Below the pieces are notes generated by a model, which did not search any database, had not been told where the DNA came from, and worked only from the letters and a program-made list of their open reading frames with translations. From a virus, in IMG/VR virus record IMGVR_UViG_3300046558_000224, positions 1 through 24,206 of that record: DNA of 24,206 nucleotides; one strand, 5' to 3'. Positions 4,628 through 23,975 of the stretch are shown here, in pieces. Position 1 is the first letter of the stretch. Every line of letters starts with the position of its first letter. A program made the position numbers and the translations under genes.

Positions 4628-7423
4628 TTACCTCCATCCTAAACGTCTCTGCATAATAGCATTTTTTCTATCCCATGCAGTTTCACCAGTATTTGTTCCT
4701 TCTCTTTTTGTAAAACTTGTAGAACCAGAAGTTGTTACTTTAGCTTGAGGAACGCCAGTTACATTAACTTGAGGTGGCTGTACAATAATACTTAACGCAT
4801 TATTTAATTTTATATTTTGTAATTTATTATTTGCTTGACTAAATCCATCTAAGATAGATGTATTAATATTAGCTGTACCTTCTTTAGCAAAATCCATAAT
4901 TTTTTGATTGTTTGCTTCTTTTTCTTTTGGATTAACTTTTTCTGGTGATATTTTATTAACAAGTGTTATTAAATCTTTTTTTACAGCGTCCCAACTACCA
5001 GATGAATATCTACCGCTTGTTAAATCACTACCGCTAGTACCTTTTGGAGCAGGTGTAGGTTTAAAGAAATTAGATTCTGGAACTATTTGTGTTTCTCCAG
5101 GTTTTTTTGGCCCTTTATATTTTGAAGGGTCTTTTAATATTTTACTCATTTCATCTACTTTTTTATCAGTTTTAGGTCCTAATTTTTCTACTTGTTTCTG
5201 AACTGGATTTTTACTAATTGCTTGATTTACTTCTTTTGGATGAGTTAATATATATACAGCGCCAGCAATTGCTACAGCATAACCGCCCCATTTTAAAGCA
5301 GAAAGCGCTTTAGAACCAAAACTTGTACCAGTAGCAACAACTGGAGGTACACCGCCAGCTCCTCCTGGTACTCCACCACCACCATTAACTGTAGCCCCAT
5401 AAACATTAACTATATTTGCTTTTATAGCCATATTTTTACCTAATATTTCTGATAATACATTACCTTTACCTTTATTTCCTGTAAAAAGTCCTAAAATAGA
5501 TTGAGTTAAAGATGTTGCTATTTTTGTACCTTTCATTGCAAGAGATACTCCTCTTACACCTAATTCAATTACTTTTATAACTGCTCCAGTAACCATTAAA
5601 GCAATTCCGCCTTTTACTAATGTTGCTACTAATTTTGCTGGGTCTTGTAAATCTTTAGGTAATTTTTTAACTGCATCGTCAAATTCTTTATTTGCTTTAA
5701 AAATATCTTTAATGAAACTAATACCATTTTTAACGATATGCCATGGGAATTCAATTAAATTATCGCCCCAATCAGCTTTAATAAGGTTTTTATTGGCAGC
5801 ACTACCTATTTGCTTTGCAGTAGAAGGGAGAGTTTTAGAAATTTCTACTCCATTAATAACACCATTACCTAATGTATTAACTACTTGAGCTGTAGTAGTA
5901 TGCCCTTCCTCTTTAAACTTAGTTACTGTTTCCTCTAATGATTTTCTAAATTTTTGAATTGGACTCTCATATTCATAATTTTCTGCATTAAGATTACCAA
6001 ATTTTTTATTTCCACCTGTAGGTGGTGAGAAATTCCTTGTTAATTGTTCTGCACCAGTTTTAATAAGTGGAACAATACCATCTAATAATTTAATTTGAGC
6101 AGATTCCCAAGCTCCACTTAATACGTTTAATTGAAATTTACCAGATTGAGCAATAATATCATGAGTCTTATCTACTGCTCCATCTGAATGCTTTACATCT
6201 TTAAACATTTCTTTTAAGGCATCTGAACCATAATATACTTTACCAGTTTTTTCTCCATCTTTACCAATTTCATCATATTTAGATTGTAAACCCATAAGAA
6301 TAGGAGCTGTACCTGCTGCTCCAAATACTTTTGATATTAATGGCATGGCTTTTTGTGAATCCCAAAAGTCTTTAGGAGCTACTCCACCATTTTTACCTAA
6401 ATAGTCTTTAAAACCTTTTTCGTCTTTAACTTCTTTTCTATATTTAGGATTTATAAAGCCTTTACTAATCATAGCTTTTTCCATATCTGCAATTAAATCT
6501 GGAAATTCTTTTAATTGTCTTGTATCTTTATTAAAAATAGCATCTGTTACACCTAAACTTGAAAAATATCCTCTTGTTCTTTTATAAAGAACATCATCAT
6601 TACCTATTTTAGATGCACTAGTCATTGCATGAAGAAAGTCCTGGGAACCTTGCGCTGCTGACATACCTTGGTCTCTCATTGTCATTAAAGCAACTAAAGA
6701 TGAATCTAATGACTGACCATACATGTTTGCACGACCAGCTAATTCACCTATTGCATGGGGTAATTCTTCTGTTTGTAGTAATGATTTATTTAATGCAATA
6801 GTTAATTTATCTGTAATTTGACTAGAATTTTGCATACTAATATTAAAACCTTTTGCAGCAGCAATAACCATTTCAGCAGCATCTTGTGGAACAGCATCTA
6901 CTGCTTCAGAAAAATATGCTGTTGTTTTTAACATGGACTTCATATCTTTAGAATTATTAATACCACCTTGACCTAATAGAATTCCTATATCTGCTAAGTC
7001 TGTTGGTTTATATGAAGTTTTATATGTTAAATCATTTAAAATATAATCAGAAACGTTTTTTCTAACTCCATTATTTGTTTCCATACGTGATTGCATTACT
7101 CTTGTTTTATAATCATAGTCTAAAGCTTTATTTGTTCCTTGAATTGCTAATCCGCCTACAACTGCTCCACCAATCATTGTAATATTTCTTAAATTTCTCT
7201 GTAGCGCAGCAGTATGCATATTAAACATCATTAATGATTTAGACATTTTATCCATTCTACCAATTACAGAATCTAAGTTGCGACCAAATGCACCAAGAAA
7301 ATTATTTGCACTACCAAATCCTTTTCCCATGTGATTCATCGTATTTTGAATGCCTCTTAGCGAACTTGAAGCTAAATCTTTAACTCCAACAACTATACTA
7401 ACTTTGTGATTAGAGCTTGTCAT
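4628..7423 (-). CDS. tail tape measure protein
   Basis: I place the start at the ATG at 7423, preceded by AGAGGTGA; an upstream Met seven codons earlier has no ribosome site. The 931-aa protein is the longest in the window. It follows the chaperone pair and carries TMP hallmarks: long helices, SAAQGSQDFLHAMTSA, an N-terminal NMYGQSLDSSLVALMTM segment, and a conserved LNVLSGAWESAQIKL motif. Hydrophobic segments lie near VKGGIALMVTGAVIKVIELG and YAVAIAGAVYILT. The C-terminal third is Gly/Pro/Lys-rich and probably flexible. It fixes tail length; the residue number would suggest a tail of roughly 140 nm by the usual ~0.15 nm per residue rule (inference). Confidence 0.93.
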   Translation of the reverse strand: MTSSNHKVSIVVGVKDLASSSLRGIQNTMNHMGKGFGSANNFLGAFGRNLDSVIGRMDKMSKSLMMFNMHTAALQRNLRNITMIGGAVVGGLAIQGTNKALDYDYKTRVMQSRMETNNGVRKNVSDYILNDLTYKTSYKPTDLADIGILLGQGGINNSKDMKSMLKTTAYFSEAVDAVPQDAAEMVIAAAKGFNISMQNSSQITDKLTIALNKSLLQTEELPHAIGELAGRANMYGQSLDSSLVALMTMRDQGMSAAQGSQDFLHAMTSASKIGNDDVLYKRTRGYFSSLGVTDAIFNKDTRQLKEFPDLIADMEKAMISKGFINPKYRKEVKDEKGFKDYLGKNGGVAPKDFWDSQKAMPLISKVFGAAGTAPILMGLQSKYDEIGKDGEKTGKVYYGSDALKEMFKDVKHSDGAVDKTHDIIAQSGKFQLNVLSGAWESAQIKLLDGIVPLIKTGAEQLTRNFSPPTGGNKKFGNLNAENYEYESPIQKFRKSLEETVTKFKEEGHTTTAQVVNTLGNGVINGVEISKTLPSTAKQIGSAANKNLIKADWGDNLIEFPWHIVKNGISFIKDIFKANKEFDDAVKKLPKDLQDPAKLVATLVKGGIALMVTGAVIKVIELGVRGVSLAMKGTKIATSLTQSILGLFTGNKGKGNVLSEILGKNMAIKANIVNVYGATVNGGGGVPGGAGGVPPVVATGTSFGSKALSALKWGGYAVAIAGAVYILTHPKEVNQAISKNPVQKQVEKLGPKTDKKVDEMSKILKDPSKYKGPKKPGETQIVPESNFFKPTPAPKGTSGSDLTSGRYSSGSWDAVKKDLITLVNKISPEKVNPKEKEANNQKIMDFAKEGTANINTSILDGFSQANNKLQNIKLNNALSIIVQPPQVNVTGVPQAKVTTSGSTSFTKREGTNTGETAWDRKNAIMQRRLGWR

Positions 7424-20787: not shown

Positions 20788-20812
20788 AGAATCCTCCCGA
20801 GAAACAAAAATA

Positions 20813-20834
20813 AACCTTAATATATTTTAAGGTT
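20813..20834 (-). terminator. terminator-like hairpin in the phoH leader
   Basis: A perfect 8-bp stem AACCTTAA / TTAAGGTT with a 6-nt loop is followed leftward by TTATTTTTG. The stem is AT-rich but the shape is that of an intrinsic terminator. It lies 26 nt before the phoH ATG. If the promoter at 20900-20929 is real, this hairpin is in the transcribed leader and could act as an attenuator. Confidence 0.55.
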
Positions 20835-20893
20835 CAATAATATAATTTATTTTAATTGTATTATTATTCCATATAATGTTTTCTAACTCATTA

Positions 20894-20929
20894 AATTGTA
20901 TTATAAAATATACAATTCTAAATTTTCAG
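20894..20929 (-). promoter_or_regulatory. candidate leftward promoter with overlapping operator
   Basis: Leftward, CTGAAA (20924-20929) and TATAAT (20900-20905) are separated by 18 nt. The -10 lies in an inverted repeat with 8-bp arms AATTGTAT and ATACAATT (20894-20901 / 20910-20917). A third copy of AATTGTAT is at 20854-20861, extended to an 11-nt direct repeat (AATTGTATTAT) that is shared with 20894-20904, 40 bp apart. This would drive phoH and the packaging genes. The -10 is perfect; the -35 matches in 4 of 6. Confidence 0.45.
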
Positions 20930-20967
20930 AAAATTTTTGAAACTATAGGAATTTAATGAAGAAAAAG

Positions 20968-20976
20968 TGATATAAT
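20968..20976 (+). promoter_or_regulatory. candidate extended -10 promoter for the PC4-like gene
   Basis: TGATATAAT gives an extended -10 (TGn upstream of a perfect TATAAT) on the plus strand. The -35 region is poor, as is common for extended -10 promoters. Transcription would begin near 20983, leaving a leader of about 270 nt before the ATG at 21257. It diverges from the candidate phoH promoter 40-70 bp away. Confidence 0.55.
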
Positions 20977-20993
20977 TATCCTAGATAGATAAA

Positions 20994-21202
20994 AAGAGTT
21001 AACACCCTAGCCCTTTGCATTTATTTGTCCTTTGAAAATCAAATATATTACATACGGCTAGGATATATTGGGTGTTAATATATTCAGACAATAACATTTT
21101 TGTGTCTTCACGGACTCTTAAAAAATCGTTATTTCTTATGTAGTTTACTACATTATAGAGATTGTTTACAATCTCTAAACCTCGTAGAGAGTATAAGAAT
21201 AA
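20994..21202 (+). ncRNA. candidate structured RNA leader, two folded domains
   Basis: Domain 1: P1 AAGAG/CTCTT (20994-20998 / 21115-21119); P2 TTAACACCC/GGGTGTTAA (20999-21007 / 21070-21078); P3 TAGCC/GGCTA (21008-21012 / 21056-21060), with a 9-nt one-sided bulge; a hairpin TTTGA/TCAAA (21031-21043); and a hairpin AGACA/TGTCT (21086-21107). Domain 2: closing stem TTATTTCTT / AAGAATAA (21029+100 region, 21129-21137 / 21195-21202), enclosing ATGTAG/CTACAT (21138-21153) and TAGAGATTG/CAATCTCTA (21156-21177); both hairpins have a TTTA loop closed by G-C. No known riboswitch, tRNA, tmRNA or 6S consensus is recognised. It could be a cis-regulatory leader or a stable small RNA. Confidence 0.6.
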
Positions 21203-21256
21203 ATTAATTAAATACTATATTATTATTATTATATTATATAATATAAAGGAGTTATT
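21203..21256 (+). promoter_or_regulatory. AT-only stretch and ribosome site before the PC4-like gene
   Basis: The stretch is nearly pure A/T, with ATT repeats (~21228) and a perfect palindrome ATATTATATAATAT (21231-21244). AAGGAG at 21246-21251 is five bases before the ATG. The palindrome ends one or two bases before the ribosome site and might modulate its access. Confidence 0.5.
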
Positions 21257-21475
21257 ATGAATAATTTCTGGGAAATATATGATTTAAAAAATATTATTAA
21301 TATTTCAAATAATAAAGAAATAAGAATTGCTTTTGTTAAAAAAGATAATACTATTGGTATAGATGTAAGGGGTTACTATAAAAAATCTGGAGAATGGAAT
21401 CATGGAAAAGGAATTACAGTTCCTGTAGATAAATGGGAAGAATTTCAAAAAGTAATTTTTGATATAAAAAAATAA
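21257..21475 (+). CDS. PC4/YdbC-like single-stranded DNA-binding protein
   Basis: A 72-aa protein and the only plus-strand gene in the window. The C-terminal two thirds match the PC4 (transcription coactivator p15) fold: strand EIRIAFVKK, strand NTIGIDVRGYYKKSGEW, then HGKGITVPVDKWEEFQKVI, matching the family pattern of v.iREyY...Ge..pgrKGIsL....W..l. PC4-like proteins bind ssDNA as dimers; bacteriophage T5 encodes one linked to recombination-dependent replication. The first ~20 residues are a short N-extension. AAGGAG lies five bases before the ATG, and a terminator follows at once. A role in replication, or in transcription or control of its own leader, is inference. Confidence 0.85.
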   Translation: MNNFWEIYDLKNIINISNNKEIRIAFVKKDNTIGIDVRGYYKKSGEWNHGKGITVPVDKWEEFQKVIFDIKK

Positions 21476-21499
21476 GAGCCAAAAAGGCTCTTTTTTTAT
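21470..21499 (+). terminator. bidirectional terminator between PC4-like and RNase HI genes
   Basis: The stem AGAGCC / GGCTCT (21475-21480 / 21486-21491) has an AAAAA loop. It is flanked by an A run on the left and seven T residues on the right, so both RNA strands get a hairpin plus U tract. It closes the convergent PC4-like (plus) and RNase HI (minus) transcripts and overlaps the PC4-like stop codon. Confidence 0.9.
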
Positions 21500-22320: not shown

Positions 22321-22567
22321 AATTTTCAATCCTCTCTAATAGTTTTTCTACTTTATCCCAATCTAAATATCCTATAACATCATCTGTAATTTCAGTATCA
22401 TATGTTAAACTCCAATCAGTTCCATTAAATTCTAATACTGCAAGTTCCCAAAGACCTCTATTTCCACCATATGAATACATATGACTTACTACACTCGCAC
22501 CATAATTATTTTCAAATTTATAAACTTTTTGTGTACCGCCATTAAGGTTTCTCTCAAACAATATCAT
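22307..22567 (-). CDS. 86-aa conserved phage protein, unknown
   Basis: An 86-aa protein with VYKFENNYGASVVSHMYSYGGNRGLWELAVLEFNG, then DWSLTYDTEITDDVIGYLDWDKVEKLLERI. I recognise this layout (ENGYGAS...SYG...G.WELAV...LtYDT.ItdDViGyL) as an uncharacterised family common in phages of Firmicutes. The first half is likely beta sheet and the last 20 residues one helix. It overlaps the SpoIIID-like gene by 14 nt, so the two are translated together. No function is known to me. Confidence 0.75.
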   Translation of the reverse strand: MILFERNLNGGTQKVYKFENNYGASVVSHMYSYGGNRGLWELAVLEFNGTDWSLTYDTEITDDVIGYLDWDKVEKLLERIENYDSK

Positions 22568-22835
22568 TTTTTTTCTTCCTTTCCGCTATTTTTTTTGTTG
22601 CTTCTCCTCCACGAATATGCCTTACTGCAGTATTAAGTTTAAGTTTCTCCTTTACTTTTTGGAATAGATAAGGGTGAATTTCTTCTAGTCTATATAAATC
22701 AAGATGAACAGTAGTTTTGCTATAACCAGTTAATTTTGCAACACTTCTAACTGTAGCATCTCTTTTAATAAATAAAATTCCATGTTCAATTGCTCTTTTT
22801 TTTATTGCATCAGATTTTTTTTCTTTTACCATCAT
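22554..22835 (-). CDS. spoIIID: SpoIIID-like DNA-binding regulator
   Basis: A 93-aa protein, the same size as Bacillus SpoIIID. The helix-turn-helix lies at residues ~28-46 (TVRSVAKLTGYSKTTVHLDL), matching the SpoIIID TVR.iAk..GvSKsTVHkDL pattern. The helix IHPYLFQKVKEKLKLNTA follows, and then the second DNA-contact element VRHIRGGEATKK (71-82), equivalent to IRHLRGGEATK. In the host SpoIIID controls mother-cell genes during sporulation. Here it is encoded near a SigF/SigG-like sigma factor. GGGAG lies eight bases before the first ATG. Targets in the phage or host are unknown. Confidence 0.88.
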   Translation of the reverse strand: MMVKEKKSDAIKKRAIEHGILFIKRDATVRSVAKLTGYSKTTVHLDLYRLEEIHPYLFQKVKEKLKLNTAVRHIRGGEATKKIAERKKKNDIV

Positions 22836-23041: not shown

Positions 23042-23278
23042 CTAAATTTTTAGATAATATGCTAAAATATTATGTTCAAGATTGACTCCAAAATATCCTA
23101 TAATTTTATTATCTAAATCAGAAATTATTTCATTTTCTAATTCAATAATTCCAAAAACAGTACCATTTGCGTAATGTTCTTTAGCATATTCAAATGTATA
23201 ATGGCCTAAAGGAACTTCTTCAATGCGAATAATTTTACTCTTCTTAAATTGTTTAAGCAAATTGTGGCTGATTTTCAT
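23042..23278 (-). CDS. 78-aa hypothetical protein overlapping the sigma gene
   Basis: The ATG at 23278 is chosen, with GAGGT eight bases upstream; a Met five codons earlier has no ribosome site. The 78-aa product (KISHNLLKQFKKSKIIRIEE, then HYTFEYAKEHYANGTVFGIIEL, EIISDLDNKIIGYFGVNLEHN) combines a short helix with strands. It overlaps the 3' end of the sigma factor gene by 26 nt, suggesting coupled translation. I do not recognise it; an anti-sigma or sigma partner is conceivable only from overlap. Confidence 0.6.
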   Translation of the reverse strand: MKISHNLLKQFKKSKIIRIEEVPLGHYTFEYAKEHYANGTVFGIIELENEIISDLDNKIIGYFGVNLEHNILAYYLKI

Positions 23279-23975
23279 TATTAAGTACCTCATAGTATTT
23301 TTTGGCTTTATTAATTGCTCTTCTATATATTCTTGATACTTGAACTTGAGATATACCTAACTTTTTAGCAATTTCTTTTTGGGTAACTTCAGCCATAGTA
23401 TAATAAAATATTTGCCTTTCTCTGCCATCTAATATTGAAAGTACTTCTTTAAGTTCTTCATTTTTAATAATTTTTTCTTCAAAATATGCATTTTCATCTG
23501 CTATAATATCTGATAAGTACATATCTCTATTATTACCATATGCTTTAACAGGTATTTCTGTACTTATTAATTTAATTTCTAATAATTCTAGAGCAATTCT
23601 AGAATCTGATAAGCTTAATTCAAATTCTTTATAAATATCTTGAACTGTAGGTAATTCTTCGCCATCTTGTATTCTTTTTGCAATTACTTTAGAAGCCTGT
23701 TTAGCTTTTCTTGGTACTTTTATAGAGCCATGATTTTCTCTTACAGAATTTATTATTTCTCCAGTAATAGCAGGAACGGCATAGGTAGAAAATTTAAATC
23801 CTGTTGAAGAATCAAAATTTTTACTGGCTTTCCAAAGACCAATCATACCCATCTGTTCCATATCTTCTCTGTCAATAACACCTACATCATTTATGTTACT
23901 AGAATTATTTAACATTCTACTTACTACAAAGAATACAAGTTTTTTATTACTTTCAAATAATTCATCTGGGCTCAA
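23253..23975 (-). CDS. sigma-70 family factor, SigF/SigG/SigB-like
   Basis: A 240-aa sigma factor starting at a TTG with AAAGGAGG eight bases upstream. Region 2 spans ~7-80: DREDMEQMGMIGLWKASKNFD, then FKFSTYAVPAITGEIINSVREN (the SigF/SigG-type 2.3-2.4 pattern STYAVP.I.GEI). Region 3 spans ~85-135 (IKVPRKAKQASKVIA, LPTVQDIYKEF). Region 4 spans ~175-228 (LDGRERQIFYYTMAEVTQKEIAKKLGISQVQVSRIYRRA). Region 1.1 is absent, as in this group. It probably directs phage late promoters or host sporulation-type promoters. A typical anti-sigma gene is not visible nearby. Confidence 0.9.
   Translation of the reverse strand: MSPDELFESNKKLVFFVVSRMLNNSSNINDVGVIDREDMEQMGMIGLWKASKNFDSSTGFKFSTYAVPAITGEIINSVRENHGSIKVPRKAKQASKVIAKRIQDGEELPTVQDIYKEFELSLSDSRIALELLEIKLISTEIPVKAYGNNRDMYLSDIIADENAYFEEKIIKNEELKEVLSILDGRERQIFYYTMAEVTQKEIAKKLGISQVQVSRIYRRAINKAKKYYEVLNNENQPQFA

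Follow-up and report, generated by a model that had tools for sequence, protein, structure and literature searches.

Part of the intergenic region between the PhoH and PC4-like genes of this phage probably specifies a stand-alone structured non-coding RNA of ~210-230 nt, read from the plus strand, which belongs to a family found at one place in the genomes of a small group of related phages, a sparsely sampled lineage, and is independent of PC4. The DNA analysed, here called the window, is a virus record of 24,206 bases that derives from a phage, and the comparisons take in the window and the related viral contigs L003, L004 and L016. Conservation of the core and helices of the RNA, and its independence of PC4, are shown by these comparisons, while its transcription and its action in trans are what we infer from them. 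The features of the locus are collected in Table 1.

Table 1. Features of the RNA locus in the window
Feature	Coordinates	Strand	Remarks
Extended -10 element TGATATAAT (TG-A-TATAAT)	20968..20976	+	GATATAAT at the same place in L003 and L004
Structured ncRNA, probable extent, 3' end approximate	20983..21210	+	Fold z -3.65; homologues in L003 and L004; no common small ORF
5' domain: P1 (10 bp) and P1b apical arm (5 bp), 9-nt one-sided 3' bulge	20998..21079	+	Same plan in L003 and L004
Conserved core GACAnTAAyAT...GGnCT...AAAA...GTTATTTCTT	21087..21137	+	Alignment and profile search
P4 hairpin ATGTAG-TTTA-CTACAT	21138..21153	+	Directly 3' of core; pairing kept in L003 and L004
P5 closing stem TTCTT(AT)/(AT)AAGAA	21133..21199	+	Encloses P4 and second TTTA hairpin; weaker support
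Second hairpin TAGAGATTG-TTTA-CAATCTCTA, 9 bp	21156..21177	+	Retention in L004 not clear
PC4-like gene, 72 aa	21257..21475	+	Pfam PF02229, E 8.7e-9; adjoins RNA in window only
Bidirectional terminator, PC4/RNase H junction	21474..21492		First terminator-like site downstream of RNA

The RNA is located in a 469-nt gap separating gene-sized ORFs (20788-21256), with PhoH (minus strand) on one side and the PC4-like gene (plus strand) on the other. Relative to it, the PhoH/packaging/structural operon is oriented divergently and the RNase H-SpoIIID-sigma genes convergently. The minus strand of the phage carries portal, terminase and tail genes, and other genes encode a PIN-PhoH protein, which resembles the RNA helicase PhoH2 family with a score below the family cut-off, an RNase H, a SpoIIID-like regulator and a SigF/SigG-like sigma factor. 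This gene content makes an endospore-forming host probable. The regulator and sigma genes occupy 22554-22835 and 23253-23975 (minus strand), both scoring below curated cut-offs, and in L016 two sigma-like genes stand in tandem; the presence of sporulation-type regulators in a phage suggests that it interferes with host sporulation.

Queries with the PhoH protein retrieved two close contigs, L003 (87% identical) and L004 (83%), and the terminase query a third, L016 (78%). These were the only close kin found with the TerL and PhoH queries, the remaining matches being at ~40% identity or less, bar one partial PhoH match. Exact-pattern scans of a bacterial and archaeal genome collection gave no relative, the PC4 protein query found none in IMG/VR or among named phages, and blastn of the RNA region against phages and plasmids returned only short chance matches. 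The certain members of the family are three (window, L003 and L004), two of them from the same metagenome. Both L003 and L004 carry, at the corresponding intergenic place and on the same strand, an element that shares the plan of the window RNA; the two are 76% identical over 200 nt, and their likeness to the window is weaker. Local alignment of the window with L003, over ~70 nt, scored above all 500 of 500 shuffles. A profile built without the window found its best place in the whole window at 21088-21139 (plus strand), with an E-value of 0.31 over 24 kb and both strands, a match that is weak by itself and depends in part on synteny, its place and strand being exactly the syntenic ones. When IMG/VR was scanned with the motif AAAAN{3,4}GTTATTTCTYATG, 56 matches were obtained, of which only that in L004 was a true one, the others being mostly coding and devoid of P4. 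Indeed, among 55 unrelated viral contigs with the motif GTTATTTCTyATG, a hairpin of at least 6 bp after the motif was present in none.

In all three phages the structure begins soon after the -10 box GATATAAT, and in the window the extended -10 promoter reported upstream in an earlier note was found as described; from its position, transcription of the RNA is expected to start near 20983. The stems described in that note were likewise all recovered, where it had placed them, by pairing the letters. Its 9-bp P2 corresponds to P1, in which GTTAACACCC (20998-21007) pairs with GGGTGTTAAT (21070-21079) over 10 bp; its P3 with a one-sided bulge is P1b, formed by TAGCC/GGCTA (5 bp, 21008-21012 with 21056-21060) and bearing a 9-nt 3' bulge (21061-21069); and its pair of hairpins sharing a TTTA loop, inside one closing stem, is present at 21133-21199. 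A helix as long as P1 of the window arises in 16 of 400 shuffles and is, on its own, mildly unusual. The arms of P5 occupy 21133-21139 and 21193-21199, and alternative folds exist for this stem.

The predicted folding energy of 20983-21215 is -49.6 kcal/mol versus -35.6 +/- 3.8 for dinucleotide shuffles (none of 300 as good), and the z-scores of this region and of its counterparts in L003 and L004 are -3.65, -4.77 and -4.36, respectively. Extension of the fold over the AT-rich tail to 21260 gives a z of -2.57, with 1 of 200 shuffles as good. The reverse strand folds comparably well (z -3.23), and folding energy therefore cannot pick the strand; the plus strand was chosen because of the promoter and because G-U pairs, which occur in P1 and in the L003 pseudoknot, would turn into A-C mismatches on the opposite strand. 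In the window, L003 and L004 no small ORF common to the RNA homologues was found, nor a clear terminator of the RNA's own on the plus strand 3' of it.

Aligned with each other, the three RNAs show a conserved core flanked by a bulged helix on its 5' side (P1/P1b) and by a hairpin on its 3' side (P4), the letters of the stems having been replaced and the predicted pairing kept. The common core comprises ~52 nt (GACA-n-TAA...GGnCT...AAAA...GTTATTTCTyA), and the most conserved stretch of the RNA, GTTATTTCT, is positioned between hairpins. P1 extends over 10 bp in the window, where its letters are unrelated to those of the other two, over 13-16 bp in L003 and over 15 bp in L004. P1b, inside it, is flush on the 5' side and has a 3' bulge of 9, 7 and 7-8 nt in the window, L003 and L004, respectively. 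Between L003 and L004, inspection of P1 by hand revealed double changes, steps from G-U to A-U or G-C and a one-base-pair indel. P4 is a hairpin of 6-7 bp at a fixed place 3' of the core, with the sequences ATGTAG-TTTA-CTACAT, AAAGAAG-TTTA-CTTCTTT and ATGATT-AAC-AATCAT. Counted by hand over the three sequences, its six inner pairs are kept in 18 of 18 cases and four of the six positions display double changes, and thus the compensatory base changes in homologues by which the earlier note proposed to judge the structure do occur. Hairpins like P4 appear in shuffles of the three RNAs at frequencies of 0.003, 0.03 and 0.001, which we combine as a chance of ~0.003 x 0.03 x 0.001. The 5' arm of P5 includes part of GTTATTTCT, and its counterparts are TTCTTAT/ATAAGAA in the window, TTTCTC/GAGAAA in L004 and ATTTCTT/AAGAGAT in L003.

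L003 and L004 contain in addition a pseudoknot, in which the bulge of P1 (ATAGGGC or ACAGGAC) complements the loop of the next hairpin (GTCCTAT or GTCCTGT). Within the consensus AYAGGRC/GTCCTRT one pair carries a double and another a single change, and a complement of this length is found in 0.3% and 1.1% of shuffles of the two RNAs; the hairpin concerned is absent from the window RNA. Helices with compensatory changes, the mark of a conserved structured ncRNA, are accordingly seen in P4 and, between L003 and L004, in the pseudoknot and P1, in a set of three sequences, too few for significance of the R-scape type. P1 was misaligned in the automatic alignments, and for this reason the RNAalifold consensus was poor.

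It could be argued that these inverted repeats do not act as RNA at all, and that the region between the divergent promoters is a DNA-level regulatory or replication site with many such repeats. The spacer is AT-rich, it has an inverted repeat (AAATTTTC-A-GAAAATTT) immediately upstream of the element and both strands fold well, as such a site might do. The arms, however, change their letters while keeping their pairing, whereas an operator recognized by a protein would keep its letters. The G-U pairs, moreover, suit only one of the strands, a conserved -10 box precedes the element, and its GC content is locally 0.30, compared with 0.10-0.18 in the adjoining spacer. We consider this explanation extremely unlikely.

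The earlier note had presented the RNA as a structured leader of the PC4-like gene. A real and conserved structured RNA is indeed present; the leader role, however, is not supported by comparison with the relatives. In L003 the RNA is followed directly by the convergent RNase H gene, and in L004 by an unrelated 131-aa ORF and then RNase H; neither has PC4 at this site. Within the L003 contig a single PC4 gene was found, at a distance of 81 kb; its leader is short and plain and lacks such an RNA. The L004 contig (45.6 kb and possibly a fragment) yielded no PC4 match. In L016 PC4 directly follows the promoter as the first gene and precedes a GC-richer non-coding stretch of 330 nt. Thus, with the RNA occurring without PC4 (L003 and L004), PC4 without the RNA (L003) and the order reversed (L016), the two are uncoupled in both directions, as far as the gene maps of these contigs reveal, and the RNA is not consistently upstream of PC4 as a cis-regulatory leader would be. 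In the window itself the RNA and PC4 are probably on one transcript, because there is no terminator-like site between the two. This arrangement, with the RNA placed after a promoter and before a gene that has a good ribosome site (AAAGGAG), is what a cis-acting 5' leader controlling PC4 in the manner of a riboswitch, a protein-binding leader or an attenuator would require, and the AATAAC of the RNA could pair with the GTTATT of either the core or the PC4 start. The conserved structure, however, contains neither a terminator nor a sequestered ribosome site and, together with the uncoupling, this makes such control unlikely, if still worth bearing in mind. The question to be asked of the RNA is therefore which partner it has, not how PC4 is controlled.

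The 330-nt stretch of L016 (3770-4095, minus strand), in an AT-rich genome, has a GC content of 0.33-0.42, against 0.03-0.25 around it, and could form many helices. It has no Rfam match, and no tool supported its being a tRNA, tmRNA, intron or other known RNA. It contains ACTGAAAAGTTCGATTTTTCTCATAATT, close to GCTGAAAAGTTGTTATTTCTCATGATT of L004 in a weak 3' similarity that 8 of 500 shuffles equalled, and a hairpin follows; its fold z of -1.7 is non-significant and the three-sequence profile missed it. That the stretch is a counterpart of the window RNA, or another RNA, is possible only. Parallel divergence in L016 was also considered as a link between PhoH and the RNA, and was set aside as weak, given that other small genes diverge as much.

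The earlier note could assign the RNA to no riboswitch or phage RNA class, and a scan of 4227 Rfam families, including riboswitches and phage RNAs, bore this out, with no match at the gathering score and only chance-level matches at a relaxed E-value. ARAGORN found no tRNA or tmRNA in the region, and the literature available to us in part contained no report of a phage RNA of this sort located next to PhoH or PC4. The window RNA thus appears, with moderate confidence, to represent a new family within phage-borne structured ncRNAs of a known general kind; the confidence is moderate because the members are few and the 5' domain of the window differs from that of the other two. GOLLD and others have been described from phages or related bacteria. 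The structured ncRNAs of phages and Bacillota include GOLLD, ROOL and OLE (PMC12286853). Like these the window RNA is structured, intergenic and without a protein product; they are, however, several hundred nt long, compared with ~220 nt here, and Rfam matched it to none of them. Riboswitches and other 5' leaders share with the window RNA a location between promoter and gene but, in contrast to them, the RNA is unlinked to that gene in the relatives and matches no riboswitch or leader in Rfam.

A further parallel is the pRNA of phi29, which is also phage-borne, of similar size and engaged in loop-loop pairing, and the RNA might similarly serve genome packaging or assembly. PhoH, a putative TerS, TerL and portal adjoin it in all three phages, and loop-loop pairing is predicted in L003 and L004. 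The phages, however, have a conventional large terminase, whose relatives are found in phages with no known use of an RNA of this type, and phi29 pRNA works with a different ATPase. The RNA also points away from the packaging genes, there is no sequence or Rfam match to pRNA, and the loop pairing is, as far as visible, within one molecule and confined to L003 and L004. A packaging role is thus very unlikely.

The stand-alone RNA that we favour would be transcribed from the extended -10 promoter, with read-through into PC4 in the window and possibly subsequent processing. It would act in trans, the core GGnCUnCUnAAAA...GUUAUUUCU being offered to a protein partner in a compact fold, pseudoknotted in two members (L003 and L004). 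It is conceivable that the segment GUUAUUUCU instead functions as the seed of an antisense or base-pairing regulatory RNA, in keeping with the position of the most conserved stretch between hairpins. The 12 neighbouring gene starts compared across the three phages, however, include no consistent target, and the conservation of the core, at ~52 nt, exceeds the length of a seed; we judge this alternative improbable. Because the core shows no consistent pairing with those gene starts, a protein partner appears more likely than base-pairing with neighbouring mRNAs. Candidates are the divergent PIN-PhoH2-like RNA helicase/nuclease and other RNA-binding proteins of the phage or host. In a bolder and tentative extension, which is possible though less than probable, the RNAs would form a new trans-acting phage family that binds a phage or host protein (for example the adjacent PIN-PhoH2-like protein, or the host transcription or sporulation machinery) and is important in infection of spore formers, with the L016 stretch as a larger, diverged member. 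Phage RNAs with a conserved fold have seldom been studied, and some have unusual roles, as part of a packaging motor or in RNA-only assemblies; the present case offers a compact RNA whose core is defined, whose fold can be tested and whose gene neighbourhood is fixed.

Several observations concern the surrounding genes. The 5' UTR of PhoH contains a hairpin, AACCTTAAAATATATTAAGGTT (20813-20834, minus strand), immediately upstream of the ribosome site. L003, L004 and L016 retain this hairpin, with altered pairs in its stem (CTTAA/TTAAG, CTTAT/ATAAG and CTTAC/GTAAG), and it is perhaps a stabilizing or regulatory 5' stem of a late message. Between the divergent promoters, 20905-20942 comprises AATTGTATTATAAAATAT and the inverted repeat AAATTTTC-A-GAAAATTT; this stretch, which is conserved in L003 and to some extent also in L004 and L016, could be the site of the PhoH promoter (minus strand) and of an operator. 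Directly upstream of the terminase gene of L003 a 278-aa ORF with a DUF4379 treble-clef domain (6409-7245, plus strand) is inserted, in a position like that of a homing endonuclease; it is absent from the window and L004. In another phage contig (L007, 3000-4400) PhoH, read by eye, is apparently split by an intein-like insertion: its match begins only at residue 302, and the upstream frame is endonuclease-like in look.
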